Assembly: GCA_028679075.1 (NCBI GenBank)
Contig: JAJRCF010000007.1
Span: forward strand, 1 to 64,000
DNA length: 64,000 nucleotides
Direction: 5' to 3'
Origin: Methanoregula sp.
GTDB taxonomy: Archaea > Halobacteriota > Methanomicrobia > Methanomicrobiales > Methanospirillaceae
Shown: positions 20,149-51,395 of the stretch, piece by piece
Position numbering within the stretch: the first letter of the stretch is position 1
Layout: each line of letters begins with the position of its first letter
Notes under the pieces: model-generated
The model's database searches: none
The model's input: the letters and a program-made list of their open reading frames with translations, nothing else
What the model was told of the DNA's origin: nothing
Translations under genes and position numbers: made by a program

Positions 20149-20170
20149 TTAACAAATGATCGTTGTTTAA
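20149..20170. promoter_or_regulatory. Inverted-repeat element upstream of pilin array 1
   Basis: TTAACAA-N7-TTGTTTAA lies just upstream of an AT-rich TATA-like stretch (about 20171-20185). Near-identical elements with a 7-base spacer occur at 27738, 32818 and 36412. Confidence 0.6.
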
Positions 20171-20197
20171 TACTTTTAATTAAAAATCGGTGTTGAC

Positions 20198-20285: not shown

Positions 20286-21089
20286 ATGCATTATCTGAAG
20301 AGACTGACAAGAAAAAATGGCGACGAGGGCGTTTCACCGGTGATTGGCGTGATGCTGATGCTCGTAGTGGTAATCATCATCGCGGCGGTCGTGAGCGGCT
20401 TTGCCGGCGGGCTGGTCGGGGGGAATAACCAGAAGTCCCCGACACTTACGATGGATGTGAAGATCTCGAACACGGGAAGCTGGATCGGGAGCGGGTTTAC
20501 CGCAACGGTCACCAGCGTGAGCGAGCCGATTGCCTCGAAGAATCTCAAACTCGTGACATCGTGGAAGACCACCAACCGGGATACCGGGGCAAGTCTCTCC
20601 GGGGGAAATACGTCAATGCCGCATGTGAATAATGTGGCAAGTCCAAAGATAGGAAGTGGCGAACTCATTTCCAGCAATGCACCCTATGGATCAGGTGCAG
20701 GTGTGAATACCTCAACCGGTGCACAGAGCCTGACCGATCCCTACTCAAAACCGGACCAGCAGTTCGGCAACTTTTCGCTGGTACAGGGAACCGGCCTGAT
20801 CGCATTCCCGTACGGAAGTTATCTCGCTACGGCCGTTGGTTCTGCCACGGGCCAGAGCGATCTTGGCGGGTATGGCATCCCGGTCTCGGTCAACCCCTCA
20901 TCGAAAGGTCCGTATAAATATACGACAGCGGCAGGTTATTTTGTCACGGGATCCCTTGACGCAACCCAGGCAGTACTGGGTGGCGGGTGGGAGAACCTGA
21001 GATCCGGGGATTCCGTGAACGTGAGGGTAATCCACATCCCGACCGGCAAGGTAATTTTAGAGAAAGATGTTGTGGTATCGGAGGGGTGA
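20286..21089 (+). CDS. Type IV pilin-like protein, subtype A (A1)
   Basis: A 267-residue secreted subunit. The class III signal peptide ends KNGDEG|VSPVIGVMLML, where a prepilin peptidase should cut after Gly, leaving a hydrophobic assembly helix (archaeal type IV pilin N-terminal domain, DUF1628 type). ATG 20286 with AGAGGATG is preferred; ATG 20250 would lengthen the leader by 12 residues. Subtype A marks: LTMDVKISNTG, GSGFTATVTSVSEPI, TSWK, QQFGNFSL and the C-terminal block WENLRSGDSVNVRVIHIPTG. It heads a six-gene array. Confidence 0.88.
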   Translation: MHYLKRLTRKNGDEGVSPVIGVMLMLVVVIIIAAVVSGFAGGLVGGNNQKSPTLTMDVKISNTGSWIGSGFTATVTSVSEPIASKNLKLVTSWKTTNRDTGASLSGGNTSMPHVNNVASPKIGSGELISSNAPYGSGAGVNTSTGAQSLTDPYSKPDQQFGNFSLVQGTGLIAFPYGSYLATAVGSATGQSDLGGYGIPVSVNPSSKGPYKYTTAAGYFVTGSLDATQAVLGGGWENLRSGDSVNVRVIHIPTGKVILEKDVVVSEG

Positions 21090-21096
21090 GAAGATC

Positions 21097-21711
21097 GTGA
21101 CAAGGAAATATTCAGACAGCGCAGTGTCCCCGGTCGTGGGTGTGATGCTGATGCTGGTCGTGGTGATCATCATCGCTGCAGTGGTATCTGCATTTGCCGG
21201 CAGTTCGGTGAACAGCCAGAAGAAAGCTCCCCAGGCAACCATCCAGGGAAAGTTCAGTGTATCCAGCGGTATGGAGATTACCCATGCCGGAGGGGATGCG
21301 CTTGCAACAAACGAGCTTGTCTTCACGGTACGAAACAGCCCGGTCTTCGGGCCGAACCTTGAGCAGACCACGGCACAGATCCTCAACAAGTCGACGATCC
21401 AGGACGGGAAGGGCCAGTGGCTCGATAATGGCGACGGCAGTACGAACGTCACGTCATTTAAATCCGGGGATACCCTGTTCATCAACAGCACCTATATCCG
21501 GTGCGATTATCTCCAGCCGGTCATTGCACCCAGTGGTTACAAAGACGCAGTCTCGTCGTCAAAAGACCAGTTCACCTATACAGGAACGGAGACACAGCGC
21601 TGGGGGCTCTGTTTCAAGAACAACGACAACCTCGGCAAGACCTTCTACCTCGATATCAGCGACAAGAAGGGGAACCTCATCTCCCGCAGCGAGGTAACGA
21701 TCACCTCATGA
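21097..21711 (+). CDS. Type IV pilin-like protein, subtype B (B1)
   Basis: A 204-residue pilin. GTG 21097 follows GAGGGGTGAG and gives VTRKYSDSAVSPVVGVMLML; an in-frame ATG at 21067 lies inside A1. Subtype B marks: PQATIQGKFSVSSGMEITHA, GGDALATNELVFTV, a gap of variable sequence, then CFKNNDNLGKTFYLDISDKK and a C-terminal SEVTITS. It begins 7 bases after A1, so the two are probably made together. Confidence 0.87.
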   Translation: MTRKYSDSAVSPVVGVMLMLVVVIIIAAVVSAFAGSSVNSQKKAPQATIQGKFSVSSGMEITHAGGDALATNELVFTVRNSPVFGPNLEQTTAQILNKSTIQDGKGQWLDNGDGSTNVTSFKSGDTLFINSTYIRCDYLQPVIAPSGYKDAVSSSKDQFTYTGTETQRWGLCFKNNDNLGKTFYLDISDKKGNLISRSEVTITS

Positions 21712-21761
21712 TCGGGGAGGTGCACGAAGACTGATTGATGAGGGAAACAGGTGAATACGGA

Positions 21762-22541
21762 ATGAAAAACCAGAGAGATATGGCCGTGTCCCCGGTAATC
21801 GGCGTGATGCTGATGCTGGTCGTGGTGATCATCATCGCAGCGGTCGTGAGCGGATTTTCCGGTGGGCTTGTCGGCGGGAGCAACCAGAAGACCCCGTCAC
21901 TCACGATGGATGTGAAGATCGCGAACTCGGGGACGTGGACAGCAAGCGGGTTCTCCGCAACCGTTACCGGCGTGAGTGACCCCATCCTCACGAGCGATCT
22001 CAAGCTTATCACGTCCTGGAAAACACGGATGAAAAACAATGCAGGGACCGCGAATGCAGATTTGAGCCTGATTTCGAACGGGACCATCATTACTGGTGGA
22101 AAAACTGTTGTCAGCGGTGTTGAGAATGTCAATGTGGTGGAACCGGATGCCGGTTCGGATGCGGTCAAAAGCATTGCACCGTATGGATTTGGATTTCCCT
22201 TAGCCCCCGGGCAGGCTGCTATTCCCCAGAGCCGGGAAACACCCTATAAAAATGTGGACCAGCAGTTCGGGAATTATACCCTGACACCGGGTGTCAGTAT
22301 TAGTGCGAAACCGTTCGGTAGCAAACAGGATGGAACCGGGGATCCCTACACCAATGGATATGGACTCAGTTACCCCTATGCTTATACTACGGATAGTGAG
22401 GGATATATCGATCCCATGCAGGCTGTACTGGGGCACGGGTGGGAGGAGCTCCGTGCCGGTGATATCGTGACCGTGAAGGTTGTCCACGTCCCGAGCGGAA
22501 AGACGCTCTATACCAAGGACGTTGCAGTAACGGAGGGATGA
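21762..22541 (+). CDS. Type IV pilin-like protein, subtype A (A2)
   Basis: About 259 residues from ATG 21762 (AGGTGA upstream); ATG 21738 and TTG 21735 are in-frame alternatives. The signal region is MKNQRDMAVSPVIGVMLML. Subtype A marks: LTMDVKIANSGTW, ASGFSATVTGVSDPI, QQFGNYTL, DPMQAVLGHGWEELRAGDIV, VKVVHVPSGKTLYTKDVAV. The central part (about residues 95-180) differs from the other A genes. Confidence 0.87.
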   Translation: MKNQRDMAVSPVIGVMLMLVVVIIIAAVVSGFSGGLVGGSNQKTPSLTMDVKIANSGTWTASGFSATVTGVSDPILTSDLKLITSWKTRMKNNAGTANADLSLISNGTIITGGKTVVSGVENVNVVEPDAGSDAVKSIAPYGFGFPLAPGQAAIPQSRETPYKNVDQQFGNYTLTPGVSISAKPFGSKQDGTGDPYTNGYGLSYPYAYTTDSEGYIDPMQAVLGHGWEELRAGDIVTVKVVHVPSGKTLYTKDVAVTEG

Positions 22542-22547
22542 GAGATC

Positions 22548-23201
22548 ATGACAAAGAACCATAACGACAGCGCAGTCTCCCCGGTCATTGGTGTGATGCT
22601 GATGCTGGTCGTTGTCATCATCATCGCGGCCATTGTCTCCGCATACGGCGGAGGGATTACAAGCGGCCAGTCCAAAGCCCCGCAGGCGCAGGTCAAAGGA
22701 ATGTTCAGCATAACGGACGGGATGACTATTACCAACGCCGGCGGGGATTCCCTCGCAACAAAGGACCTGGTCTTCACGATCCGTGACGGCCCGACGTTCG
22801 GGACAGACCTTGAATCATCAACCGCCCAGACGGTGAACATGTCGACAATTCAGGTCAGTGCAGTATTGAGCAGAACTGGCGAAGCCGGCCCTATGAGAAC
22901 CTTAGACGGGGCATTCTACATGGTCTCGTTTAATCCCGGCGACACGGTGACGATCAAGCCGGCTGATTGCACCTGTAATTTTCTCCAGCCCGGTATCGCA
23001 CCAACGGATTTCAAGAACAATGTCAGGTCCGATGGTTACACGTACGAGACCGATCCCGCCATCAATACCGACGGCGTGGAAACTGCGGCATGGGCACTCT
23101 GCATCCGGAACCAGAACAGTATCGGAAAGAGCTTCATCCTTGAGGTGAGTGACACTGCAGGCCATTCGATCTCAAAGAGTGATGTGGTGATCACCGCATA
23201 A
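22548..23201 (+). CDS. Type IV pilin-like protein, subtype B (B2)
   Basis: A 217-residue pilin starting MTKNHNDSAVSPVIGVMLML behind GAGGGATGAG, 6 bases after A2. Subtype B marks: PQAQVKGMFSITDGMTITNA, GGDSLATKDLVFTI, DGPTFGTDLESSTAQ, then a region containing two cysteines (PADCTCNFLQPGIAP), and the C-terminal ALCIRNQNSIGKSFILEVSD. Confidence 0.87.
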   Translation: MTKNHNDSAVSPVIGVMLMLVVVIIIAAIVSAYGGGITSGQSKAPQAQVKGMFSITDGMTITNAGGDSLATKDLVFTIRDGPTFGTDLESSTAQTVNMSTIQVSAVLSRTGEAGPMRTLDGAFYMVSFNPGDTVTIKPADCTCNFLQPGIAPTDFKNNVRSDGYTYETDPAINTDGVETAAWALCIRNQNSIGKSFILEVSDTAGHSISKSDVVITA

Positions 23202-23219
23202 TCATCATTTTTGGAAGTC

Positions 23220-24182
23220 ATGGTCAAAATGAAGAACAAAGAACAATCCAGGCCCCTGAATGAGCGGGGGGCACTGAAGAAAGAATGCGACAACGCGGTT
23301 TCACCGGTTGTCGGTGTGATGCTGATGCTGGTTGTCGTTGTCATCATCGCGGCGATCGTCAGCGGATTTTCCGGAGGGTTGGTCGGAGGCAACAACCAGA
23401 AAGCCCCGACCCTCAACATGGATGTAAAGATCGCCAACTCGGGAAGTTACCGTAGCACCGAATTATCGGCAACGGTCAATGGCTTGAGCGAACCGATCCC
23501 GACAAAGGATCTTAAGATTATCACTTCATGGACGACGACAGTAAAACAGAATTATTATATTGACAGTGATGCCATTAATAAAAATTCAGTTGCAGGTACC
23601 GGCTGTATAGTCAATCGTCCAAACGGGACGGTCTATCATGGCGGTGCTGAAGTCATACCGGGTATCACGAATTCGTGTACGGGGAGAACCCCTTGTAGCG
23701 TCGCACCGTACGGGTTTGGGCCTGGCGTCGAAAATAGTTCCACCTCTGATTTGGCAGAAGGAACTACTGGGGGTGCGGTGGTTCCTGAATTCAACTGGCA
23801 AGCTTTCACCGTAACTCATTTCGGCAATTACAGCCTGCAACAGGGAACCGTGATGATGGCCGAAGCGGGCGGGCGGTGTCTTAACTGGCCTATGACCGGG
23901 GGAATACCAGATACCTACGATATGGGAGGGTATGGCTCTAAGGCAGGTCAGACCGTCCATCCGTATACGTACGTAACTGGAAATTTCTATAGGGTATATT
24001 CCGGGAGTAAAACCACCCCTCAGGAGATTCTCACGGACAATGGTGAGATCGATGGTATGCAGGCCCTGTTGGGATGCGGCTGGGAGAACCTGCGGGCCGG
24101 TGATATTGTGAACATGAAGGTTGTCCACCTCCCCTCTGGGAAAACGATCTTCGACAAGAACATTGTCGTGAGTCCTACGTGA
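23220..24182 (+). CDS. Type IV pilin-like protein, subtype A with long variable insert (A3)
   Basis: About 320 residues from ATG 23220 (TTG 23211 and ATG 23229 are alternatives). The leader is unusually long, about 26 residues before ECDNAVSPVVGVMLML. The conserved A frame is present (LNMDVKIANSG, VNGLSEPIPTKDLKIITSWT, FGNYSL, ALLGCGWENLRAGDIVNMKV). About 100 extra residues in the middle contain four or more cysteines (GTGCIVN, NSCTGRTPCSVAPYG, GGRCLNW). Part of the insert (23540-23600) is AT-rich compared with its flanks. Confidence 0.85.
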   Translation: MVKMKNKEQSRPLNERGALKKECDNAVSPVVGVMLMLVVVVIIAAIVSGFSGGLVGGNNQKAPTLNMDVKIANSGSYRSTELSATVNGLSEPIPTKDLKIITSWTTTVKQNYYIDSDAINKNSVAGTGCIVNRPNGTVYHGGAEVIPGITNSCTGRTPCSVAPYGFGPGVENSSTSDLAEGTTGGAVVPEFNWQAFTVTHFGNYSLQQGTVMMAEAGGRCLNWPMTGGIPDTYDMGGYGSKAGQTVHPYTYVTGNFYRVYSGSKTTPQEILTDNGEIDGMQALLGCGWENLRAGDIVNMKVVHLPSGKTIFDKNIVVSPT

Positions 24183-24192
24183 GGTGATCATC

Positions 24193-24843
24193 ATGATGAA
24201 TCTTCATAACACTCATAATGCCGATGCAGTCTCACCTGTTATCGGAGTAATGCTGATGTTGGTCGTGGTGATCATCATCGCGGCCATTGTCTCTGCATTT
24301 GGGGGTGGGCTTGTCAGTAGCCAGCCCAAGACCCCCCAGGCAACGATCAAGGCCACCTTCAGCGTCGCGGACGGCATGACCATCCGTCATGCCGGGGGGG
24401 ATGCGATTCCGTACAATAATCTCGTCTTTATTATCAAGACCGGACCCGGATTCGGACCGAATACAGAATCGGTTTCTACGCAGAACATCAATACGAACCT
24501 GATCACCGATCAGGATGGGAACCCGGTGTTTTCGACCGGCCAGATCACCGGTAAGACAGCCTTCAAACCCGGGGACACACTCTTTATCAGTGCAGAGAAC
24601 AGCACATGCTATCCGCTGCAACCCGTGATATCTGAGGCATTGATCGGTCCATCTCGTGGGAATACGAAGTGTAGTCCATGGTGGAACCCCGTAACCAACC
24701 CAACAACATATAATGGAGGTTGCGGCGCATTCTGGCAACTCTGTTTCCGAAACCCTAAAAATGTCGGCAAGGTTTTCATTCTCCAGACAAGTGACAAGGC
24801 GGGGAACCTGATCTCCCGGAACGAAGTGAAAATCACACCGTAA
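24193..24843 (+). CDS. Type IV pilin-like protein, subtype B with cysteine-rich insert (B3)
   Basis: About 216 residues from ATG 24193 (GAGGTGATC upstream; GTG 24184 is an alternative). The signal region is MMNLHNTHNADAVSPVIGVM. Subtype B marks: PQATIKATFSVADGMTIRHA, GGDAIPYNNLVFII, GPGFGPNTES. A segment with four cysteines (STCYPLQ, NTKCSPWWN, GGCGAFWQLC) sits where other B genes have a short loop. It is the last gene of array 1. Confidence 0.86.
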   Translation: MMNLHNTHNADAVSPVIGVMLMLVVVIIIAAIVSAFGGGLVSSQPKTPQATIKATFSVADGMTIRHAGGDAIPYNNLVFIIKTGPGFGPNTESVSTQNINTNLITDQDGNPVFSTGQITGKTAFKPGDTLFISAENSTCYPLQPVISEALIGPSRGNTKCSPWWNPVTNPTTYNGGCGAFWQLCFRNPKNVGKVFILQTSDKAGNLISRNEVKITP

Positions 24844-25234
24844 CGGGAGCGCCGGAAATACATACCTTCGCAATCGGGCAGGAATACCCTCCACTGCAGG
24901 AAAAACGTGCAGGGCGAATGGCAGACTTCCTCCCGTTTACCTGCACATTTTTTTTCTTTGAAAGGTTACGGTCTTCCCGGGTGTTCCCCGCAGCAGGACC
25001 GGTGGACATTCATACACGGCAATTCACGCCCGGGTTGTCCTGTGCGATTTACCGGAACCCGCGTGAACAGGATTGATGAATCATTGCGCTTTTCAATATG
25101 TACCTGAAGGGACACTCCTTTACGTCCCGGCGCTGGGCAGACCACAGACTGTCCCGGCCTCTCTCATCCGGACCGCCCGGTATGTAAAACCATTGTAATT
25201 AATAAATCTAAAAAATTAATCAAATATTGTAACC
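24844..25234. other. Gene-free gap after pilin array 1
   Basis: A hairpin plus T-run terminator lies at the start of the gap and an AT-rich promoter-like stretch lies before the methyltransferase gene at 25235. Nothing else is recognised. Confidence 0.5.
24907..24956 (+). terminator. Stem plus T-run terminator of pilin array 1
   Basis: GTGCAGG (24907-24913) pairs with CCTGCAC (24940-24946), followed by A and a run of nine T, then C and more T. It lies 64 bases after the B3 stop. Confidence 0.6.
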
Positions 25235-26167
25235 ATGAACAATAGAAATTCCATAAACGGACCGGTACCCGGGACAGATAGCTTACCGGGAACATACTGG
25301 CAGGAGCGGTGGAAGAAGCAGCGTCTTGCCCGGCTCGCCGTGCCACGCACCGGCTCCCCGGATTCGTTCTGGAACAATAAAAAAAGACTTTCCGATCACT
25401 TCATCCAGAACCTTGACAGCGGGAGGAAGGAAGCGGAGGAGCGGATTTCCGGCATGGGGATCCGTGACGGGTCGCGGGTGCTCGACATCGGGGCCGGCAC
25501 CGGCACGCTCGCCATCCCACTCGCCGTGCATGGCTGCGATGTCGTGGCCGTGGAACCCGGCGAAGAAATGCGCGATGCGCTCGGCCTGTACGAAAAACAG
25601 CAGCAGGTACGGCCCATCACGATCGTCCCGAAGCGCTGGGAGGAGGTGACACCAGAAGAACTGGGAGCGCCCTTCGATGTCGTGATCGCATCCTACAGCC
25701 TCATGATCACCGATATCGGCGACGCGATCCGGAAGATGCAGTCAGTCTGCACCGGCCAGGTGCACCTCTTCTGGTTTTTGACCCAGCCGTACACCGCCAT
25801 GCTCAATACGGCGCTCTGGCCACAAGTCCACGGCGCGGAATTTCCCGGCGAACCTACGGCAGACTGCCTCTGGCAGGTGCTGTATGAGATGGGGATCTAT
25901 GCAAATCTTACTGTTGAAGCGAGCTGCGAGCCGGCGTATTTCCCTACGATTGATGACGCAGCAAAGGATTTCTGCAAACGTCTTGACTGCACAACACCGG
26001 AACAGGACCGTGCCGTCCGCGAGTACTGCGAGACCACCCTTACAAAGACAGAACGGGGATACCGCGTTGCAGGTGAAGCGCTCGGGGCGCACATCTGGTG
26101 GGATGCGAATAGCAGCAGGTGTGCACAAGATCGGAGCAGGAATACCCTGAGATATCCCAACACCTGA
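25235..26167 (+). CDS. Class I SAM-dependent methyltransferase (paralog family, member 1)
   Basis: A 310-residue cytoplasmic enzyme. SAM motif I is VLDIGAGTGTLAIPLAVHGC (about residues 86-105), the acidic post-I residue is in VAVEPGEEMRDAL, and motif IV-like DVVIASYSLM is near 157. It belongs to a four-member family in this window (25235, 36525, 38928, 40439) sharing the N-terminal FWNNKK, KRWEEVTPEELGAPFD, VHLFWFL and LYEMGIYA. The family ends HIWW. The substrate is unknown; related genes sit beside FmdE and a Mop protein at 38600-41330. Confidence 0.82.
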   Translation: MNNRNSINGPVPGTDSLPGTYWQERWKKQRLARLAVPRTGSPDSFWNNKKRLSDHFIQNLDSGRKEAEERISGMGIRDGSRVLDIGAGTGTLAIPLAVHGCDVVAVEPGEEMRDALGLYEKQQQVRPITIVPKRWEEVTPEELGAPFDVVIASYSLMITDIGDAIRKMQSVCTGQVHLFWFLTQPYTAMLNTALWPQVHGAEFPGEPTADCLWQVLYEMGIYANLTVEASCEPAYFPTIDDAAKDFCKRLDCTTPEQDRAVREYCETTLTKTERGYRVAGEALGAHIWWDANSSRCAQDRSRNTLRYPNT

Positions 26168-26190
26168 TTTCTACCTCCTCATGATCCGCC

Positions 26191-26937
26191 ATGACAGAAA
26201 CCTTTGACCCTTTCTGGAAATATGACGAAGATGCCTGCCAGTACAATGAGTTTACAAGAGCCACATATGCCCGGATCTACCCGGTGATTGCCGACCAGAT
26301 CCTCGAACGCACCGGGATCACCCGGGGTGCCTGTCTTGACGTTGGATCCGGGCCGGCACTGCTTGCGATTGCCCTTGCCCTCCTGTCGGATCTCCGCGTT
26401 ACGGCACTCGACAGTTCACCGGAAATGTATGAACTGGCACGCAGGAATATCCGGGACCGGTGCATGGAGGCACTGGTGGTTCCCCTTATCGGGGATGTCC
26501 ACGCGATCCCGGCAGCGGATGCCGCGTTCAGTCTCGTGGTCAGCCGGGGGTCGTTCCATTCCTGGGAAGATCTTCCTGCAGCGTTTTTGGAAATCTCCCG
26601 GGTCCTACGGCCAGGTGGCATGGCCTATATCGGAGGAGGTTATGGCAGTGCCCGGATCCGTGACGAAGTACTTGCAGACCGCAGGGAGCGTGAGTTCGTT
26701 GGCGATCCCATGTATCCTCCAAGGCCCCGGTTCCCTAAGTTCAGTGTCAGTGAAATTGAGGTCTCGCTCGAAGTGGCCGGGATCAGCGATTACCGGATCC
26801 GCATTGATGATTCAGGATTCTGGATAATTATCCGGAAAAATGAAGAACAAAAAAACCGGCATGGTCCTGCGTTGGGTAAAGAAACCGGTCCGGAAAACCT
26901 GCCGCAATTTCACGATGGATTCTTTTTTACACAATGA
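26191..26937 (+). CDS. Class I SAM-dependent methyltransferase, UbiE-like
   Basis: A 248-residue methyltransferase. SAM motif I is CLDVGSGPALLAIALAL (about residues 48-64), followed by VTALDSSPEMYELARRN, a GDVHAIPAADAAFSLVVSRG segment (about 105-124) and ISRVLRPGGMAYIGGG. This is the UbiE/methyltransferase 11 layout, different from the upstream paralog family. The last 35 residues are polar and probably not part of the fold. It starts 23 bases after the preceding methyltransferase gene, so they may be co-transcribed. Confidence 0.8.
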   Translation: MTETFDPFWKYDEDACQYNEFTRATYARIYPVIADQILERTGITRGACLDVGSGPALLAIALALLSDLRVTALDSSPEMYELARRNIRDRCMEALVVPLIGDVHAIPAADAAFSLVVSRGSFHSWEDLPAAFLEISRVLRPGGMAYIGGGYGSARIRDEVLADRREREFVGDPMYPPRPRFPKFSVSEIEVSLEVAGISDYRIRIDDSGFWIIIRKNEEQKNRHGPALGKETGPENLPQFHDGFFFTQ

Positions 26938-27737
26938 TCGTGCACCAGTGTACGGGATGGAAAAACCGGCAGAGCGGCCTGCGCAAAAAAAGATCCTGCC
27001 CGGATAAAAAGTTTCGGAAACCGGCGTTTAGTACCCTGTCAGGATCCGGCTGCTATCCCTGCAACAACTCCTGCCACTCTTCCCCGATCACCCCGGATCC
27101 GGCACTCACAGCCGGTTCCGACCACGTCCCGAACCTTGTGGAAGGGGTCGATCCTCGAATTAAAAGGGCCCTATTAGCGCAGTTTTGCCTCTCCGGTGTG
27201 AAAAATAAAATTCCGGGGCAATACAGAGCGATTTAAAATGATTTCCGCAGGTGTTTTCATGGAATTCCGCAGTTTTTCGGGTTCCCGAAAAATGACCTTG
27301 CGGGGAAATCGTTCAAAATAACCTCTGTTTGCCAAAAGAGGGCTGATTTGGGGTATGGGGGCCTTGGCCCAACCAGTACTCTCCACGGGACAATTCTCCG
27401 ACGTCCGAAAGGTCGTAAGACCGTGAGGAAGAGAAGAACGCATCAGCGTTCTTCGAAGGTCGGCTGATGCCTCCCTTCTCATTTCTCGGGTTTGATAACC
27501 CTTGAAATTTCGAAGACCCTGCGGGCCTTCTCGTTGTCGAGGTCCTGATGCACCTCTCCAACTCATCAGAGTTCTTCGATTGAGCCCCGTTACCCGGGAG
27601 CCCTCCGGGAGACCATCTGATCCCCCTCATGATCTCAGTGCGAGCCAATCCGTAACGATATACAATTTGCCAAATCGATTTAATTCAATTTAACTGATTT
27701 TGATCAATGTAAAAAAATTAAATATAACTTCGAAAAA
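26938..27737. other. Long gene-free region with structured repeat
   Basis: No convincing protein gene is present. The region contains repeat copy 1 (27165-27522) and further small inverted repeats up to about 27625: CTGATG/CATCAG around 27550-27572 and CCCGG/CCGGG around 27593-27610. AT-rich promoter DNA for pilin array 2 follows. Confidence 0.6.
27165..27522. repeat. Structured dispersed repeat, copy 1 (about 358 bp)
   Basis: It matches 34446-34751 over about 300 bases with many exact blocks, including TTAGCGCAGTTTTGCCTCTC, ATGATTTCCGCAGGTGTTTT, GAATTCCGCAGTTTTTCGG and GACGTCCGAAAGGTCGTAAG. Small hairpins are built in: GGTC-GTAA-GACC with a GNRA-type loop, GAAGAACGC-ATCA-GCGTTCTTC, and GGGTT-TGAT-AACCC. 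Copy 1 has about 70 bases between two CGAAG blocks that copy 2 lacks. No plausible transposase or open frame belongs to it. Confidence 0.85.
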
Positions 27738-27758
27738 TTAACAAAAGATCATTGTTAA
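27738..27758. promoter_or_regulatory. Inverted-repeat element upstream of pilin array 2
   Basis: TTAACAA-AAGATCA-TTGTTAA has perfect 7-base arms and a 7-base spacer, directly before an AT-rich TATA-like stretch. It matches the element before array 1. Confidence 0.65.
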
Positions 27759-27786
27759 ATATTTTTAATTAATAATGGTGATGGAC

Positions 27787-27837
27787 ATGGCAGGACAAGT
27801 ATACAGCCGTGCGGTTGCCGCTCGTGCTCCGTCATGA
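27787..27837 (+). CDS. Candidate 16-residue leader peptide of pilin array 2
   Basis: MAGQVYSRAVAARAPS, 16 codons then TGA, preceded by GGTGAT. It is the counterpart of the frame at 20198-20248 in the other array leader. A further in-frame ATG two codons upstream (27781) is possible. Translation is not shown. Confidence 0.4.
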   Translation: MAGQVYSRAVAARAPS

Positions 27838-27875
27838 TATTGTTCTCATGGAGATTTGAGCAAGAGGAAGAACCT

Positions 27876-28586
27876 ATGCATTTTCAGAAGAGACTGACAA
27901 GAAAAAATGGCGACACGGGCGTCTCACCGGTGATTGGGGTGATGCTGATGCTCGTTATCGTCATCATCATCGCGGCAGTAGTTTCCGCGTTTGCCGGGGG
28001 TACTGTAAGCGGAACACAGAAAGCCCCATCGCTCACTGCTGAGTTCCATATTAAGAACGGGGGGACTGCTGCCACTTCGTACTTCTCTATGAAAGTACTG
28101 GGGGTCAGCGAGCCGATCCCGACAAATAACCTGAGAGTAATTACGTCGTGGACGACTACCAACAAGACGCCCGGTGATGACTTTGGAAAAGCGATCAATG
28201 GCGGAAATACGACTTACGCAGGAATTGGAGGAGTCTCCATTCCGGATGAAATAGCCGGTACCAGTTCCATAACCGTCCCTACCGGCTATGGCAATGGAGT
28301 TCAGAATTGGGCAAACGACACGTATCACCCGGAGGAGACAATGTGGGGGAATTTCACCCTGACTTCCGGAACCTCGACATTTGATAGACCCGTGGATTAT
28401 GGAACTGGAATATCAACGGGATCTTATTGGTACAATTCAGATTCCCACAGCACTGATCCCATGGAAGCTATCCTTGGCACAAAATGGAATCACCTGAGAG
28501 CAGGTGATACCGTGACCGTACGCATCATGGCTGCAAACTCCGGAAAAATACTCGTGGACCAGAATGTCCTTGTGGAGGGTCCATGA
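27876..28586 (+). CDS. Type IV pilin-like protein, subtype A (A4)
   Basis: A 236-residue pilin, first gene of array 2. ATG 27876 is preferred by analogy with A1; the upstream FSWRFEQEEEP frame is shared by both arrays. The signal region is MHFQKRLTRKNGDTGVSPVI, almost identical to A1. The mature part diverges more than other A genes: LTAEFHIKNGGTAATSYFSM, VLGVSEPIPTNNLRVITSWT, WGNFTL, MEAILGTKWNHLRAGDTVTV. It has no cysteines. Confidence 0.87.
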   Translation: MHFQKRLTRKNGDTGVSPVIGVMLMLVIVIIIAAVVSAFAGGTVSGTQKAPSLTAEFHIKNGGTAATSYFSMKVLGVSEPIPTNNLRVITSWTTTNKTPGDDFGKAINGGNTTYAGIGGVSIPDEIAGTSSITVPTGYGNGVQNWANDTYHPEETMWGNFTLTSGTSTFDRPVDYGTGISTGSYWYNSDSHSTDPMEAILGTKWNHLRAGDTVTVRIMAANSGKILVDQNVLVEGP

Positions 28587-29116
28587 TACCGAAGAATGAG
28601 CAGGCTGTCTCACCGATTGTCGGCGTGATGCTGATGCTGGTTGTTACCATCATCATTGCGGCACTGGTCTCCGCATTCAGCGGGGGAGCGGTGAGCGGGA
28701 CCCAGAAAGCCCCCCAGGCAACGATCCAGGCAACCTACAGTCAGACAACCGGGATGACCATCTCCCACGGCGGCGGGGATCCGATACCGCTTGCCACGAC
28801 AAAGGTCATCGTGAAACCTTTGCGATCGTTCGGGGAAGATGCCACCCGGTACTCATGGGTGGTGAACAAGAGTTATGTCCTTAACAGCGCAGGCCTGACC
28901 TGGGCGACCGCACGGGCATTCATTCCCGGCGACACGGTCACCATCAGTTCGGCCAACCTGAGCTACGTCCAGCAGCGGCCGGATATGACAACGGACGAAC
29001 AGGATCCGTCATTCGGGTTTACCAACTCAAACAACTTAGGACTCTCCTTCGAGCTCCAGTTCCAGGATTCCAGCGGGAAGACCATCGGGCAGAGCACCGT
29101 GACGATCAGCCGGTGA
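28583..29116 (+). CDS. Type IV pilin-like protein, subtype B (B4)
   Basis: A 177-residue pilin whose ATG overlaps the A4 stop (ATGA), showing direct coupling of the A/B pair. The signal region is MIPKNEQAVSPIVGVMLML. Subtype B marks: PQATIQATYSQTTGMTISHG, GGDPIPLATTKVIV, NSNNLGLSFELQFQDSSGK. It is the shortest B member of the two arrays. Confidence 0.87.
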   Translation: MIPKNEQAVSPIVGVMLMLVVTIIIAALVSAFSGGAVSGTQKAPQATIQATYSQTTGMTISHGGGDPIPLATTKVIVKPLRSFGEDATRYSWVVNKSYVLNSAGLTWATARAFIPGDTVTISSANLSYVQQRPDMTTDEQDPSFGFTNSNNLGLSFELQFQDSSGKTIGQSTVTISR

Positions 29117-29125
29117 GATGACAGT

Positions 29126-29890
29126 ATGACACGCAGGTACCATACATCCAGAGAGGACCACGCGGTCTCACCGGTGGTGGGAGTGATGCTGATGCTGGTT
29201 GTCACGATCATCATCGCAGCAGTTGTTACCGGGTTCTCCGGAGGGCTGATCGGGAAGGTCGACGAGAAGGCCCCGACCCTCACCGTGGACGTGAAGATCA
29301 TCAACATGGGGAGCTGGACCGGGAGCGGGTTCTTTGCAACCGTTACTTCGGTAAGTGGGCCAATCTCGACCAGGGATATCAAGATCGTGACGTCGTGGAC
29401 GGCCTCACGGTCGTCCGCCAACGCATTTCAGAGTATATCCGGCGGGAATACGACCCGGCCGGGGATGACCAATGTAAATGCACTCGGGGATCCGACAATC
29501 CCCGTCAGCTTGGTCGCGCCGTTCGGCACCGGACCGGGAATCAACGGGAGTGCAACGATCGGATCTCTCGATACGGACGCGGCAACGTTTTCGAGCCTTT
29601 GGCAGCAGTTTGGGAATTATTCACTGATGTCGGGGACTACCCTGACGGCACAGCCGTGCGGGGCGGCAGACTTAGAGACTATCGGCGGCTCGAGCGCCGA
29701 CCAGGGATACGGAGTCCGAACCATGTATCAGTACGCACCAGAGGGAGCGACCTATCTCGATCCCGCTTCAGCAGTCCTCGGGCCTCACTGGGAGAGCCTG
29801 AAGGCGGGGGACAGAGTGAACGTGAAGGTGATCTACACACCCACCGGGTCGGTCATCTTCCAGAAGGATATACCGGTAACGGAGGGATAA
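29126..29890 (+). CDS. Type IV pilin-like protein, subtype A (A5)
   Basis: A 254-residue pilin starting MTRRYHTSREDHAVSPVVGV. Subtype A marks: LTVDVKIINMGSW, GSGFFATVTSVSGPISTRDI, SLWQQFGNYSL, GTTLTAQPCGA, SAVLGPHWESLKAGDRVNVK. GGTGAGATG precedes the start. It shares the VAPFGTGPGINGS segment with A6. Confidence 0.87.
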   Translation: MTRRYHTSREDHAVSPVVGVMLMLVVTIIIAAVVTGFSGGLIGKVDEKAPTLTVDVKIINMGSWTGSGFFATVTSVSGPISTRDIKIVTSWTASRSSANAFQSISGGNTTRPGMTNVNALGDPTIPVSLVAPFGTGPGINGSATIGSLDTDAATFSSLWQQFGNYSLMSGTTLTAQPCGAADLETIGGSSADQGYGVRTMYQYAPEGATYLDPASAVLGPHWESLKAGDRVNVKVIYTPTGSVIFQKDIPVTEG

Positions 29891-29894
29891 GAAG

Positions 29895-30503
29895 ATGGAA
29901 CCAGTCAGTCATGACGCAGTATCGCCGGTGATCGGTGTGATGCTGATGCTCGTTGTCGTGATCATCATCGCGGCCGTAGTATCGGCATTTGCCAGCGGGA
30001 CGATGGGGAATACCGCCAAGCCCCCTTCGGCAACGATCAAGGGAATCTTCAGCCAGTCGGGAGGGATGCAGATCATCCATACCGGCGGCGATGTCCTTCC
30101 AACGGCAAATCTCGTCTTCACCGTGAGTAACGACGCCTCCTTCGGGCAGGCCCTCGGGACGATGACCACGCAGGTGCTCGATAAGAAAATTATCACGGAT
30201 TCCAAGGGAAACCAGCTGATCAACACGGACGGGACAACGAATGTGACCTCGTTAGGGCCGGGACAGACGCTGTACATCAGCCAAGCAAATTTAGCGCCCA
30301 AATATCTCCAGCCACAGGTTGTACCTAACGAGGGTACCATCTCGTTTGGCGGACGGATCTGGACGTATACGATGGAGAAACCATCGTACTGGAAGATGTG
30401 CTTTGTCAACCCCGACAATGTCGGAAAGACCTTCACCCTCCTCGTGAGCGACAAGAGCTCGGGAGCGGTGGTGGCCAGAAATACGGTGGTTGTCGAGCCA
30501 TAA
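29895..30503 (+). CDS. Type IV pilin-like protein, subtype B (B5)
   Basis: A 202-residue pilin starting MEPVSHDAVSPVIGVMLMLV 4 bases after A5, with GGAGGGAT upstream. Subtype B marks: PPSATIKGIFSQSGGMQIIH, GGDVLPTANLVFTV, SFGQALGTMTTQVLDKKII, CFVNPDNVGKTFTLLVSDKS. Confidence 0.87.
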   Translation: MEPVSHDAVSPVIGVMLMLVVVIIIAAVVSAFASGTMGNTAKPPSATIKGIFSQSGGMQIIHTGGDVLPTANLVFTVSNDASFGQALGTMTTQVLDKKIITDSKGNQLINTDGTTNVTSLGPGQTLYISQANLAPKYLQPQVVPNEGTISFGGRIWTYTMEKPSYWKMCFVNPDNVGKTFTLLVSDKSSGAVVARNTVVVEP

Positions 30504-30538
30504 ACGGTCATCAGGGTAGATGAGGAGAGGAAGACCGT

Positions 30539-31552
30539 ATGCATCTTTGGAATGGAGTGACAGGAAACGATAACGACAAGGGCGTCTCTGTGGTGGTTGG
30601 CATCATGCTGATGCTCGTTGTCGTCGTCATCATCGCGGCCCTGGTCTCGGGGTATGCCGGAGGGATGATCAAGACAAACCAGAAGGCTCCGAACCTCGCG
30701 ATGGACGTGAAGATCACGAACGATGGGTACTGGCACGGGAGCGGGTTCTTCGCAACTGTTACCGCGGTAAGCGAACCGATCCCGACAAAAGACCTCAGGA
30801 TCCTGACCTCGTGGAAGCACGGCACGGAGATCGGAGGAGCTACGACAGTAGCGGACACGCAGAATATCAATACACTCTTTGCTCCGAATACTACGCTCGG
30901 CAGCGGACTCTATGTCGCCCCGTTCGGCATCGGACCGGGAGTCAACGAGACGGGAACGCTTTGGGGCGAAGATACGAATACGACTGCATTTTCAGGCGCC
31001 TGGCAGCAGTTCGGGAATTACACGCTGGTACCGGGGACAACCCTGACGGCTCAGCCATGCGGGGCAAAAGACGGGGGCCGTTTCGGCAGCTCGGGGGAGA
31101 ACAACCATTACGGGGGGTATGGCGCAGACAATGCATCATACGAGGTCTGGGTTGAGGATGTTACCACGACTTGTTATTATAGGTTTACTGTGAAAACTGG
31201 CACGATTAATTCATGGGGTTGTTGTGCAGTTGGGGATACAACCTGTTCAGCGTATAAAAATTATGCATACTATCTGCCAGGTGGATCAATGTATAAGTAC
31301 ATAGAATCTGGTAGATATCAGGTATATACTCAAGAGGTAACAACACCCGGTCATTATAACCCCGTGGCTGCAACAAGCGCCACAAAATATAGGTATGTCA
31401 ACTGCGGCAGCAGCTGTATCGATCCCGCCAAAGCGCTTCTCGGCACCAACTGGAATAACCTGATACCGGGGGATACCGTGAACGTCAGGGTGATCCACAT
31501 CCCGACCGGGAAGACGATCTTCAACCAGGACGTACCGGTGACGGAGGCCTGA
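30539..31552 (+). CDS. Type IV pilin-like protein, subtype A with AT-rich cysteine insert (A6)
   Basis: A 337-residue pilin, the longest here, behind GAGGAGAGG. The signal region is NDNDKGVSVVVGIMLML, with SVVVG in place of SPVVG. The A frame is normal up to GTTLTAQPCGAKDGGRFG and from SCIDPAKALLGTNWNNLIPG onwards. Between them (about 31140-31400) is an AT-rich insert rich in Tyr and Cys (TTCYYRFTVK, WGCCAVGDTTCSAYKNYAYY). Codon choice in the insert differs sharply from the flanks. No B partner follows. Confidence 0.86.
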   Translation: MHLWNGVTGNDNDKGVSVVVGIMLMLVVVVIIAALVSGYAGGMIKTNQKAPNLAMDVKITNDGYWHGSGFFATVTAVSEPIPTKDLRILTSWKHGTEIGGATTVADTQNINTLFAPNTTLGSGLYVAPFGIGPGVNETGTLWGEDTNTTAFSGAWQQFGNYTLVPGTTLTAQPCGAKDGGRFGSSGENNHYGGYGADNASYEVWVEDVTTTCYYRFTVKTGTINSWGCCAVGDTTCSAYKNYAYYLPGGSMYKYIESGRYQVYTQEVTTPGHYNPVAATSATKYRYVNCGSSCIDPAKALLGTNWNNLIPGDTVNVRVIHIPTGKTIFNQDVPVTEA

Positions 31553-31556
31553 TACG

Positions 31557-32288
31557 GTGAGACCATCCGACACGCAAGCGGTCTCAGCGGTTGTCGGCGT
31601 GATGCTGATGCTGGCCGTCACGATCATCATCGCGGCAGTGGTGGCCGGGTTCTCCGGTGGGATGATCGGGACTGTCCAGAAGACCCCGAACCTCATTCTG
31701 GACGTGAAGATTGTCAACAGCGGGTTTTGGACAACGAGCGGGTTCTCTGCCATCGTTGTCGAGACGAGCAGACCGATCCCGACAAGGGATATCAAGATCG
31801 TAACGTCGTGGACTATCGTCAACAGAACCACGGGCGAACTGGAGACCGGCGGAAGCACGGTAATGCCGGATGTCGATAACATCAATCACGATGTCTGTAA
31901 TGCGAATCAATGGACGCCTACTGATCCTTCAATAGCTGCACCTTTCTCGACCGGATTTAACTCTGGGCGAGTAGAGTCCCAGTACCAATTCGGGTCATAT
32001 ACGCTGGTACCGGGATCCACCATGTCGGCCCCCACCCAGCATTGTCTATGTCTATGTTTTTATGATAGCACATGTCCGACTGCTTCCAATAACTGTATTG
32101 ATTCCGGTGCGTACGGGACCAGACAGCAGTACGCCTATCCAGATCCCACCTTTATCGATGCTGCCACAGCGGTTCTTGGGGAGGGTTGGCAACAACTGCG
32201 AGCCGGAGATACCGTAAATGTCAAGGTGATCCATACCCCGACCAACAAGATCCTCTTCAACAAAAACGTACTGGTGACGGAGGGATGA
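31557..32288 (+). CDS. Type IV pilin-like protein, subtype A with cysteine cluster (A7)
   Basis: A 243-residue pilin from GTG 31557, 4 bases after A6. The signal region is MRPSDTQAVSAVVGVMLMLA, with SAVVG in place of SPVVG. Subtype A marks: LILDVKIVNSGFW, TSGFSAIVVETSRPIPTRDI, YQFGSYTL, TAVLGEGWQQLRAGDTVNVK. The variable region carries a cysteine cluster (HCLCLCFYDSTCPTASNNC). Confidence 0.86.
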   Translation: MRPSDTQAVSAVVGVMLMLAVTIIIAAVVAGFSGGMIGTVQKTPNLILDVKIVNSGFWTTSGFSAIVVETSRPIPTRDIKIVTSWTIVNRTTGELETGGSTVMPDVDNINHDVCNANQWTPTDPSIAAPFSTGFNSGRVESQYQFGSYTLVPGSTMSAPTQHCLCLCFYDSTCPTASNNCIDSGAYGTRQQYAYPDPTFIDAATAVLGEGWQQLRAGDTVNVKVIHTPTNKILFNKNVLVTEG

Positions 32289-33085: not shown

Positions 33086-33226
33086 TCATGACCGAAAATG
33101 TAAAAAAGTAAATCCGGAATGGTGCCCCCCGCCATGGGAACATGCAAGGAGGATACCATGAACAAGAACAATGAATTGAACCCGGCGGGATATCTCCCCG
33201 TCGTAAGAAGATGCAAGGAGAAAACC

Positions 33227-41896: not shown

Positions 41897-42871
41897 TCAG
41901 TAGGCCCCGATTTTGATATCGGTTGTCTCAATGATCAGCGTCATGTTGGGATAGCCAGTATCTCTTTTAAACGTCAGCAGGGTTTCATGCTCCGAAAGAG
42001 GCGTTATCATAACATTGTCGCATTGACTCAGTTTTTCAACGCTGGTCACATTCACCGATTGCCATAATGTTGCATTCCATACTGTTGCATTCCTGAAACG
42101 ATCCGGGGGGGTATCGATGCTCAGGTACATACTGGTAGCGTAGGTAATCGGTTCTTCAGTATGCACAGAACTGTTCAGACGCAGCATCCCGTTCCCGTTA
42201 CCGCTGATATGGGAATGCCGGCTGTCCGGCGTGATATTTACTACGCGGATCTTTATCGAAGAGCAGTTTTGATTACCGGTAATTTCCGATACTGAACGGA
42301 CATGTTCCACCTCCACAAGGGATGCCGCGAGCCCGTACGTAACATCGCTCCAGCGATAGAACTCCAGCGGGGTGGACAGGTTGCGTTCGGTATTCAGGAC
42401 ATAGGTATTACCATACATCCATCCATAGCCCTGGTCCTGCCAGAAATTATTCACCGGTTTATAGGAAAATTTCACGAGACTGAAATTATGTACTATCCCA
42501 GGGTAGGGAGTCCCGAGGCCGTCAGGTGTGTTGTTGGTCCAATTGAGCCGGAAGTACCCGGTGGAGGAGGTATCAAGGGGAGAGGCATTCCAGATCTTCA
42601 GTTCCCCGCCGGATTTTACCGGGTCAAAGGCAAACTCCCCACCCCCCAGCGGGATGGGTTCGGATAATCTTATCTCCTTTTTCATGGACACGGCAGTATC
42701 GATATCCGAGGAAAATTTTAAGAAGCCGGTCTCGACCTCCTTGATGTGGGAGATCTCGGACTGTGCTTTCATGGAGGGAACGTAATACGCGTTCCATGCG
42801 GCAAAAAACGTCACTGCGACAGCAAGGATGAGCATCACCGCAATGACCGGGGCAACGGCATCGTCTCTCAT
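41897..42871 (-). CDS. Divergent archaeal type IV pilin-like protein, large
   Basis: A 324-residue exported subunit. MRDDAVAPVIAVMLILAVAV resembles the archaeal pilin N-terminus, though with a very short leader. The mature part is beta-rich with many Asn sequons (NTT, NCS, NMT and others). It does not fit subtype A or B. Its start overlaps the stop of the pilin-like gene before it (42868-42871), so the two are coupled. It may be a minor pilin or a tip or cell-surface subunit. It points away from the pilin and secretion genes at 43600. Confidence 0.75.
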   Translation of the reverse strand: MRDDAVAPVIAVMLILAVAVTFFAAWNAYYVPSMKAQSEISHIKEVETGFLKFSSDIDTAVSMKKEIRLSEPIPLGGGEFAFDPVKSGGELKIWNASPLDTSSTGYFRLNWTNNTPDGLGTPYPGIVHNFSLVKFSYKPVNNFWQDQGYGWMYGNTYVLNTERNLSTPLEFYRWSDVTYGLAASLVEVEHVRSVSEITGNQNCSSIKIRVVNITPDSRHSHISGNGNGMLRLNSSVHTEEPITYATSMYLSIDTPPDRFRNATVWNATLWQSVNVTSVEKLSQCDNVMITPLSEHETLLTFKRDTGYPNMTLIIETTDIKIGAY

Positions 42872-43311
42872 GGGCCGATCCTCCCTGTATAGATCACGGT
42901 CCTGGGTGTAACGAGTTTGACGCTCTCATTACCCAGGAGATCCTGTTTCATTTTCACGGTGATGTTACTCCCAAGATCGAATACATCTTTGTCCGGCACC
43001 AGCAGGAACTGAGTATTTGGATTTGTATAGGTCTCATTATAGCGGTAGGATTCCCGCCAGGTATCATTACCGACAATACCGACAATAACTGAAAGATCCT
43101 CTGCCTTCACCCAGTCCCCGCCTTTATGCCAGAGCGTGATATTCCGCGTGTCATTGCTCATCTTGATCGTAATGCCCGGGTCGCGGTCGGTCGGGAGATA
43201 ATTATACAGAACTGTAGAAAAAACCGCGAGCAGCACGATAACAAGGGCGACCATAAGCATCTCCCCGACAACTTCGGAAACCCCGGAATCCCCCTGATAG
43301 TTATGCAGCAT
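42868..43311 (-). CDS. Divergent archaeal type IV pilin-like protein, small
   Basis: About 147 residues from ATG 43311 (GAGGTGG close upstream; ATG 43323 adds 4 residues and 43371 adds 20). The signal region is NYQGDSGVSEVVGEMLMVAL, with a Glu after Ser (VSEVVGE) where the A/B pilins have SPVVGV; a Glu near +5 is the classical assembly residue of bacterial pilins. The C-terminal part is beta-rich. It is the first of a two-gene unit, divergent from the third pilin pair with 288 bases between. Confidence 0.75.
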   Translation of the reverse strand: MLHNYQGDSGVSEVVGEMLMVALVIVLLAVFSTVLYNYLPTDRDPGITIKMSNDTRNITLWHKGGDWVKAEDLSVIVGIVGNDTWRESYRYNETYTNPNTQFLLVPDKDVFDLGSNITVKMKQDLLGNESVKLVTPRTVIYTGRIGP

Positions 43312-43599
43312 TGGCCACCTCATTTTTATGTTCCGGTTATGTACCTGCCGGGTAATGGGTAATCGGAGCATCGTTGCAGTGATTGTTTATGAAGGGGAAT
43401 TTTTCCATATTCAGCACCAGGTATTAAAAAATTCTTTAGTTGCAGTACTAATGTTAAATCTTAACCTTTAATTAATGGTAATTGTAAATATGATTTACTA
43501 AACATTGTTCCGGATACCTCCATAATCAATAGAAACAATAGAAAAAATTCAATTTATAATTAGTGTGTCCGGCCGTCCCTGAAAAATTACGAGTGTACC

Positions 43600-44229
43600 A
43601 TGAGAATCAAATCTGATGATGGTGTTTCCCCGGTTGTTGGCGTCATGCTTATGCTTGCAGTGACGGTGATCATCGCCGCCATTGTCAGCGCAGCCGCGGG
43701 GGGATTGTCCGGTACCGAGAAGAAAGCCCCTTCGGCGATCCTCGAAGTGCACTTCTACGATAACCGGTCATATGGCGGAGGTGTATTCTCTTCCGATACC
43801 ATGACCATCGAGCACATGAGCGGGAATCCCCTCCAGACAAAGGATCTCAGTATCGCCACGTACTTCAGGAACGCATCCGGCCTGATCAAGGGATCCCTCA
43901 TGGGCGAGAAGTCTGTACCCGTGGGATCGCAGAATTGCGGCGTCCTATACATCAATAATCCGGACCGGTTCGGGGAACCGCGGCAGGATTCCGGGATCAC
44001 CGGGTACCAGAACTGGTTCGGGAACTCGTCGGCAGTGCTGATGCCGGGTGATATGCTCGTGACCCCTGCCCAGTACTTTGGATCATCAAATAATACTGCT
44101 CTCCATCAGATTCTCACGATTGATCCCGATGCCGATCCTGCATATCGGGCCGGCGCGGTTGTCAATGTGAAGATTGTACACATCCCCACCGGGCAGGTGA
44201 TCTTTGACAAAGACGTGGTGGTTATTTGA
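43600..44229 (+). CDS. Type IV pilin-like protein, subtype A (A8)
   Basis: A 209-residue pilin starting MRIKSDDGVSPVVGVMLMLA. It keeps the A-type C-terminal block RAGAVVNVKIVHIPTGQVIF and KDVVVI, and an LQTKDLSIATYFRNASG segment in the place of the TSW block. It is shorter than array A genes. It begins the four-gene set pilin A8, pilin B8, secretion ATPase, membrane platform. Confidence 0.85.
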   Translation: MRIKSDDGVSPVVGVMLMLAVTVIIAAIVSAAAGGLSGTEKKAPSAILEVHFYDNRSYGGGVFSSDTMTIEHMSGNPLQTKDLSIATYFRNASGLIKGSLMGEKSVPVGSQNCGVLYINNPDRFGEPRQDSGITGYQNWFGNSSAVLMPGDMLVTPAQYFGSSNNTALHQILTIDPDADPAYRAGAVVNVKIVHIPTGQVIFDKDVVVI

Positions 44230-44732: not shown

Positions 44733-44751
44733 AAATGTGATACGGGGTACC

Positions 44752-46686: not shown

Positions 46687-46694
46687 CAACCGTG

Positions 46695-51201: not shown

Positions 51202-51227
51202 ACGAGTGTGATTATGTATGGTAAAAA

Positions 51228-51241
51228 TACTATTTATATAG
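51228..51241 (-). promoter_or_regulatory. TATA box of the PEGA/transglutaminase gene
   Basis: On the minus strand CTCTATATAAATAG is a textbook archaeal TATA box about 30 bases before ATG 51201. It implies a nearly leaderless transcript and supports that start, for which no ribosome site is seen. Confidence 0.65.
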
Positions 51242-51395
51242 AGCACAAATGTGTTTAACACTCATGCATTGTATAATGAAAAAGGTTTACTTATTAAGGG
51301 GGGTCCGGAATTTGTGTGGTGGATTTCATGCCTCCTGATCAGATGCACTGGCAGATGGGAATAATAACCTGAAACTCCCAGATACGAATACCAGC

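Follow-up and report, generated by a model that had tools for sequence, protein, structure and literature searches.

Filaments that contain two kinds of subunit, and operons that contain two adjacent pilin genes, have both been described, and they form the background to the locus analyzed here: two tandem arrays of type IV pilin-like genes in a 64,000-nt stretch of DNA (the window) from a Methanoregula sp. genome (contig JAJRCF010000007.1, positions 1 to 64,000; assembly GCA_028679075.1). According to the sections of the literature cited here and below, the archaellum of Methanocaldococcus villosus alternates two subunits, ArlB1 and ArlB2, and preformed heterodimers have been proposed (PMC8821640). 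Adjacent pilin pairs, UpsA/UpsB and AapA/AapB, have been described in Sulfolobales, and each of the six pilins PilA1 to PilA6 of Haloferax volcanii forms a pilus alone (PMC4371748). Methanospirillum hungatei has some 11 paralogous pilin genes, of which a single one stands outside clusters of two or three; the clusters are often near ABC transporter genes (PMC4704411). The census of Makarova et al. (2016) described euryarchaeal PilA-family pilins with ATPase and TadC genes, as well as tandem duplication in arCOG02981 (PMC4858521). In Streptococcus sanguinis, the heteropolymeric type 4 pilus consists of PilE1 and PilE2, which are alike and are arranged stochastically (PMC10628169).

The source genome (2.5 Mb in 40 contigs, 90% complete) belongs to Methanoregula or a very close genus. 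We consider it somewhat probable that its arrays encode structural subunits of type IV pili and that these pili are built on a module of two matched pilins, one of type A and one of type B. At the level of sequence, the basis for this proposal is a set of Pilin_N paralogues in which A is followed by B, the spacing is tight, the partners diverge jointly, and one pair lies beside genes for a pilus ATPase and platform.

Two pilin families and the A-B pair

Positions 20286-32288 contained twelve full-length open reading frames (ORFs), all on the plus strand, and two methyltransferase genes split them into two arrays. All 12 products scored above the Pfam cut-off for Pilin_N (PF07790; 51.6 to 81.2 bits, with a cut-off of 25.2 bits), as did the products of a further pair, A0-B0, which brought the count to 14 of 14 A/B genes in the window. 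A short charged leader, a predicted cleavage region, and a hydrophobic helix (residues 12-34 in B1 and 18-40 in A1) could be read at the N termini of the 12 array products. The preliminary description of this DNA had divided the twelve genes into two subtypes, and an all-versus-all BLASTP comparison of the mature parts of the 14 pilins bore out this division. Specifically, the seven proteins A1 to A7 matched one another at 56 to 169 bits and the five proteins B1 to B5 at 58 to 151 bits, whereas each A-versus-B score listed was 25 bits or less. The ORF positions and types also agreed with the orders that had been read from the sequence, namely A1B1A2B2A3B3 in array 1 and A4B4A5B5A6A7 in array 2.

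The idea that A and B are unrelated proteins was ruled out when the mature A and B profiles were aligned with hhalign (probability 85%, E 6.7e-6). As judged from these comparisons, the two subtypes are two old paralogous families that are distant homologues, and type A resembled type B plus a long, variable central insertion. Searches against solved structures yielded no matches at E values up to 10 for the mature A profile and five matches for the mature B profile, the best of which (E 0.22) we regarded as chance. When the 14 pilins were compared to the archaellin family PF01917, B1 alone was listed, at 15.8 bits with a cut-off of 29.5, in listings that extended to E 1 or E 0.1. Eight of the 14 were scanned for UpsA (NF046073, cut-off 130 bits); seven scored 13.8 to 24.6 bits, and B1 was unlisted.

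To follow A and B through the order, 232 genomes were searched with profiles of the mature parts only; the sequences that went into the profiles came from these genomes too. Type A was detected in 95 of these genomes and type B in 91; in a sample of the phylum, 78 of 392 genomes contained type A. Alternation beyond chance was seen when gene succession was counted over the best 150 A and the best 150 B matches, for which each genome contributed no more than 13 scored candidates of type A or 16 of type B. The next listed match within 700 nt downstream took A to B 124 times, B to A 37 times, A to A five times, and B to B zero times, and 21 A and 113 B matches had no further listed match within that distance. 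The loci that were fetched from the order, taken together with the window, contained 129 A genes, which were followed by B (107), an unclassified pilin (9), another A (6), no pilin (5), or an edge (2), and 115 B genes, 107 of which were preceded by A and 8 by none or an edge; this set was drawn from loci with good A or B matches, so unpaired genes are under-represented in it and the best-150 count is less biased.

A later set of loci (L067-L092), drawn partly from families f8 and f9 and partly from the order itself, contained A in 20 of 26 cases. Here, 31 of 35 A genes were followed by B and 4 by an unclassified pilin, and 31 of 33 B genes were preceded by A, 1 by B, and 1 by none or an edge. 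An ATPase or platform gene was found in the same stretch in 12 of the 20 A-bearing loci, and A-B pairs were located ahead of motor genes in two other families of the phylum as well. Many of the distant B labels had weak scores, and one locus outside the order (L080) read A-B-B. The spacing within and between pairs differed: the median distance from the A stop codon to the B signal motif was 25 nt (n=106) versus 63 nt from the B stop codon to the next A motif (n=39), with genes that lacked a recognized signal motif or were 400 nt or more apart omitted. In the two arrays of the window, the five gaps within pairs were 7, 6, 10, -4, and 4 nt, the gaps between pairs were 50, 18, 9, and 35 nt, and A6 and A7 were 4 nt apart.

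The preliminary description had suggested that trees of the A and B proteins be used to examine whether partners co-diverge, and they did. We found 108 pairs and used 107, from 38 genomes of the order; one pair was dropped when the signal motif of its B, in a masked stretch, was not recognized. Patristic distances of the A and B partners correlated at r=0.868, whereas reshuffling of partners within genomes gave a mean r of 0.26, and none of 2000 trials reached the observed value. Using FastTree's supports, 38 of 62 well-supported splits were common to the A and B trees, compared to at most 9 in shuffles. Conflicting A splits numbered 1 of 47 at a support of 0.95, 6 of 62 at 0.9, and 14 of 76 at 0.8.

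Because linkage alone would yield co-divergence, cognate partners were also compared to the A and B genes of neighboring pairs. In arrays (36 neighbors), the cognate r was 0.91 to 0.93 versus 0.67 to 0.71 for neighboring pairs. With the hexads (ABABAB runs) removed, the values were 0.85 to 0.93 versus 0.38 to 0.51 (18 neighbors), and the bootstrap lower bound of one difference was 0.005. These comparisons bear on the possibility that A and B are independent pilins that became adjacent through block duplication, in which case linkage would explain the co-divergence and there would be no partnership. The co-divergence of neighboring pairs and the short A-B spacing are what this explanation expects; however, cognate r exceeded neighbor r in each comparison made, B-to-B succession was absent from the best-150 count, and the pair recurred as single-pair loci across the phylum. 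We consider this explanation quite improbable. As far as sequence data go, the A-B pair is the unit of inheritance, with partners that match each other better than nearly equally linked strangers; physical contact is a separate matter. The pair that the preliminary description had singled out is thus a real unit, one that recurs across the order and beyond with tight spacing and co-diverging partners, and this supports a two-subunit module. The two outcomes named beforehand as contrary to a paired design were absent, as A and B did separate and relatives did show the alternation.

The ordered hexad and the changing content of its site

Pairs 1, 2, and 3 of array 1 formed separate clades in the A tree and in the B tree alike. 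Each pair grouped with the pair at the same position in eight other hexads, with supports of 0.94 to 0.995 (A) and 0.92 to 0.997 (B). One of these hexads was in a genome of the same genus (G188), two each were in three genomes of another family (G029, G131, and G132), and one was in a genome of a third family (G099). Among the matches listed, position-matched hexads from the three families accounted for nine of ten ABABAB runs, and this hexad type was present in at least 6 of the 232 genomes. The window and G188 hexad proteins were 82 to 93% identical (neighboring genes, 79 to 85%), and the dN/dS values for the six hexad genes were 0.075 to 0.204, with 0.14 for the neighboring transporter genes.

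Recent tandem duplication of one pair was rejected for array 1, given that its three positions were separate clades across families. From the trees, the three pairs of array 1 are old, non-equivalent, and kept in order, and they do not form a row of spares. Different roles are therefore likelier than redundancy, and the pairs probably differ in the conditions, filament types, or filament segments that they serve. The preliminary description had proposed that the subunits were duplicated as pairs to give interchangeable heterodimers; that proposal did not hold for array 1, whose pairs are separate old lineages, but duplication of pairs did fit the tenth ABABAB run. This run, in G135, was part of a four-pair run, and its pairs clustered with each other and with those of G137, which indicated that local pair duplication occurs there. 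The local expansion in these two genomes (L034 and L035-L036) was visible in both trees.

Several features were observed near hexads or in the genomes that carried them. Formylmethanofuran dehydrogenase genes (subunit A label TIGR03121) lay within about 10 kb of hexads in four of the six genomes with this hexad (window 8526-10235, G029:C3, G131:C42, and G132:C1, not G188 or G099), for no obvious reason. Six of the seven hexads outside Methanoregula were followed by a 389- to 422-aa frame with SfLAP scores of 25.5 to 35.0 bits (cut-off 35) and sub-threshold thioredoxin matches (L004 8227-9465 and 14284-15546; L025 12410-13603; L027 4544-5710 and 11059-12252; L032 9196-10461); at this place, the second hexad of G132 had short frames alone. 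The SfLAP/thioredoxin-like frame may be linked to the cysteines of the pilin pairs. In G029 (L003-L010), there were 52 Pilin_N matches and several A-B arrays, and one of its loci (L009) contained a six-gene run in which A alternated with pilins that the profiles left unclassified.

Array 2 had a different history. A4-B4 grouped with the pairs that open short arrays in G188, G131, and G029, and A5-B5 grouped with a pair in G011 (supports 0.89 and 0.93); on the basis of the trees, we rejected the idea that array 2 was copied from array 1. A6 and A7 were loosely placed with A-A-A runs of G188 and G205, B4 was 66% identical to its G188 counterpart, and array 2 was less conserved than the hexad. 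The site itself also varied. In G018 and G193, a homologous transporter operon and the same kind of leader preceded a single A-B pair that belonged to another clade. A gene homologous to the second methyltransferase came next, and motor genes lay farther on, in the opposite orientation relative to the pair. In G188, the leader was located at the head of the hexad, of array 2, and of one additional pair.

These findings suggested another explanation, namely, repertoire variation, in which pairs encode alternative, separately used pili that are gained and swapped at one site, with the effect of altering surface properties such as adhesion or virus or parasite attachment. The single other-clade pair of G018 and G193 at the place of the hexad, the patchy distribution of type A, the pair expansion common to G135 and G137, and the weaker conservation of array 2 are consistent with it. 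In contrast, the dN/dS values indicated that the hexad is under purifying selection, its order was kept over families, and all 12 array genes were full-length ORFs with signal regions. Repertoire variation is possible, although we think it somewhat unlikely as the overall explanation; it is compatible with the matched-pair module where array 2 and the entire site are concerned, and a changing repertoire seems the better description of array 2 and the transporter-linked site.

Motor genes, leader, and neighboring features

The third pair, A0-B0, was not among the twelve genes of the preliminary description. It sits immediately 5' of T2SSE ATPase and T2SSF platform genes, whereas no T2SSE or T2SSF gene adjoins arrays 1 and 2. 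In the BLASTP comparison, A0 scored 29 to 43 bits to other A proteins and 16 to 25 bits to B proteins, and B0 scored 19 to 34 bits to B1, B3, B4, and B5 (with no B2 match) and 16 to 18 bits to A proteins. A0 and B0 were included in the later search profiles, and their profile scores are no independent proof of type.

Both arrays were headed by an operator-like palindrome near TTAACAAATGATCATTGTTAAATA. Exactly two copies with up to two mismatches were found in the genome, one at the head of each array, and the reversed control gave none; A0-B0 lacked the element. Across 39 genomes of the genus, 12 matches were found in 9 genomes (reversed control, 1). The nine that were inspected, including all seven without a mismatch, were at the heads of pilin operons; the other three had two mismatches each. 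The pattern was written from the window and G188 leaders, and thus five of the seven exact matches were by construction and those in G192 and G193 were independent. Matches to TTTATATA failed to single out the heads of the arrays. Because the palindrome, at up to two mismatches, was confined to the two array heads, this sequence evidence suggests that arrays 1 and 2 probably form one regulon that shares a dedicated promoter and leader and is switched on together, with A0-B0 outside it. In an alignment of eight leaders, a candidate hairpin had 90% of cells paired, which 42 of 500 shuffles reached; its covariation score was reached by 18 of 500 shuffles, and 218 of 500 shuffles reached the observed two pairs changed on both sides. 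This hairpin is possible and weakly supported. The palindrome and conserved leader are a good bait for a pilus regulator.

Features of the pilus region are collected in Table 1. Additional SAM methyltransferase genes were dispersed over the region (36453-37373, 38928-39839, and 40439-41326, in addition to 25235-26167), and their DNA was similar enough to cross-match. A Pfam-less protein (33119-33784) followed the A-rich array, and a 39% identical counterpart had the same placement in G188 (L031 5242-5841). Transglutaminase-like proteins were encoded at 12618-13457 and 49573-51261, the second with four PEGA stretches; for Methanomicrobiales, Makarova et al. (2016) associated type IV pili with a family of transglutaminases (PMC4858521). 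Pilin_N matches numbered 23 genome-wide, and a short one elsewhere (G000:C14:33211-33375, an 83-aa frame at 32.5 bits) is possibly a fragment. Silent-cassette antigenic variation of pilins would involve truncated copies that lack promoters; the twelve array genes were full length, and this short match was the one such candidate noted in the rest of the genome. No Rfam family reached its gathering threshold in the window, and ARAGORN found no tRNA there.

Table 1. Positions of pilin genes, motor genes, palindromes, and adjoining genes in the window
Feature	Position	Strand	Evidence
Array 1 operator-like palindrome, TTAACAAATGATCGTTGTTTAATA, ahead of leader with possible hairpin	20149..20172	+	two genome copies
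A1, type A pilin, array 1 pair 1	20286..21089	+	ORF, PF07790, BLASTP, tree
B1, type B pilin, A1 partner, GTG start	21097..21711	+	ORF, PF07790, BLASTP, tree
A2, type A pilin, array 1 pair 2	21762..22541	+	ORF, PF07790, BLASTP, tree
B2, type B pilin, A2 partner	22548..23201	+	ORF, PF07790, BLASTP, tree
A3, type A pilin, array 1 pair 3, five Cys in mature part	23220..24182	+	ORF, PF07790, BLASTP, tree
B3, type B pilin, A3 partner	24193..24843	+	ORF, PF07790, BLASTP, tree
SAM methyltransferase adjoining hexad, 83% identical counterpart in G188	25235..26167	+	
SAM methyltransferase, DNA homologue 3' of single pilin pair in G018 and G193	26191..26937	+	
Operator-like palindrome of array 2	27738..27761	+	two genome copies
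A4, type A pilin	27876..28586	+	ORF, PF07790, BLASTP, tree
B4, type B pilin, 4-nt overlap with A4	28583..29116	+	ORF, PF07790, BLASTP, tree
A5, type A pilin	29126..29890	+	ORF, PF07790, BLASTP, tree
B5, type B pilin, A5 partner	29895..30503	+	ORF, PF07790, BLASTP, tree
A6, type A pilin, no B partner	30539..31552	+	ORF, PF07790, BLASTP, tree
A7, type A pilin, no B partner, GTG start	31557..32288	+	ORF, PF07790, BLASTP, tree
Pilin-like protein next to motor	41897..42871	-	Pilin_N 18.4 bits, under cut-off
Divergent Pilin_N protein next to motor, neither A nor B, candidate minor pilin	42868..43371	-	
A0, A-like pilin of motor-linked pair	43600..44229	+	PF07790, BLASTP, tree
B0, B-like pilin, TTG start, 4-nt overlap with A0, weakest type assignment	44226..44732	+	
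Pilus assembly ATPase, T2SSE	44737..46686	+	PF00437, E 4e-35
Pilus membrane platform, T2SSF, start uncertain	46647..48542	+	PF00482, E 3e-28

The proposed filament and described systems

If the arrays do encode matched A-B modules, A and B would be translated in a coupled way and in matched amounts, and they would be processed and inserted together and meet in the membrane as specific partners. A T2SSE/T2SSF motor, most likely the one encoded at 44737-48542, would add A and B together, and the resulting filament would contain both subunit types, much as the alternating archaellum does.

Two observations weighed against this proposal. The main warning comes from Aap, where two pilins are adjacent and yet the filament consists of AapB alone (PMC11178815). 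In addition, array 2 ends in A genes without a B, which indicates that pairing is not absolute and that a 1:1 ratio of A to B does not always apply. Both fit the alternative that one member of the pair (say B) is the sole major pilin and that its partner, produced at low levels, serves as a minor, cap, or assembly pilin, the part proposed for AapA. Unpaired A genes in G188 and G205, the larger size of A, and its more variable insertion point the same way. However, the hexads, like most of the other runs observed, had A and B multiplied jointly, a co-duplication that a minor pilin does not need, and the close spacing from A to B suggests that the two are synthesized in matched amounts. We rate the minor-pilin alternative as fairly unlikely and continue to favor the matched-pair module.

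A more specific form of the matched-pair proposal, which we view as distinctly unlikely, is that array 1 encodes a programmed composite pilus. Here, three obligate, non-equivalent A-B heterodimers would occur in a fixed order, in one filament or in an ordered set of filaments, and would be co-expressed with array 2 via the operator and leader. If true, this would be an archaeal pilus of matched heterodimers instead of one major pilin. The ordered hexad in any case raises the question of why three non-equivalent pairs stay together in one order. More generally, Aap is a one-pilin pilus from a two-pilin operon, and the regularly alternating two-subunit filament that has been described is an archaellum (PMC11178815, PMC8821640); a conserved, co-diverging A-B pair in many methanogens would suggest that two-subunit pili may be common there.

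The M. villosus archaellum resembles the proposed filament in having two different subunits; those of the archaellum have an N-terminal helix and a beta head (PMC8821640). It differs in that its subunits are archaellins, whereas those of the present system are Pilin_N proteins in up to six pairs that are known from genes alone. The Ups and Aap operons of Sulfolobales place two adjacent pilins beside an ATPase and a platform, which matches A0-B0 (PMC4371748, PMC11178815); unlike the window, they are described without mention of arrays of pairs in the sections cited. Neither an A/B division nor paired arrays are described for PilA1 to PilA6 of H. volcanii in the cited part of that work (PMC4371748). 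The pilin clusters of M. hungatei come from the same order of methanogens as the window, and the cited sections report no two types, alternation, or arrays of pairs (PMC4704411); the main text of Makarova et al. (2016), to the extent cited, has no A/B pair, ordered hexad, or co-divergence (PMC4858521). The S. sanguinis pilus is bacterial and has two similar pilins, unlike the distant A and B families (PMC10628169).

The preliminary description knew of no described archaeal pilus with this paired-array design. For paired arrays this was right as far as we searched, but adjacent pilin pairs and clusters had been described (PMC4371748, PMC4704411, in the sections cited). Our searches of the open-access literature, which left subscription journals and preprints largely outside, turned up neither ordered hexads nor a split into A and B families that co-diverge. 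As far as we searched, then, the A/B split with co-divergence and the ordered hexads are new, and they extend a background in which adjacent pilins, pilin clusters, tandem duplication, and two-subunit filaments were already known.

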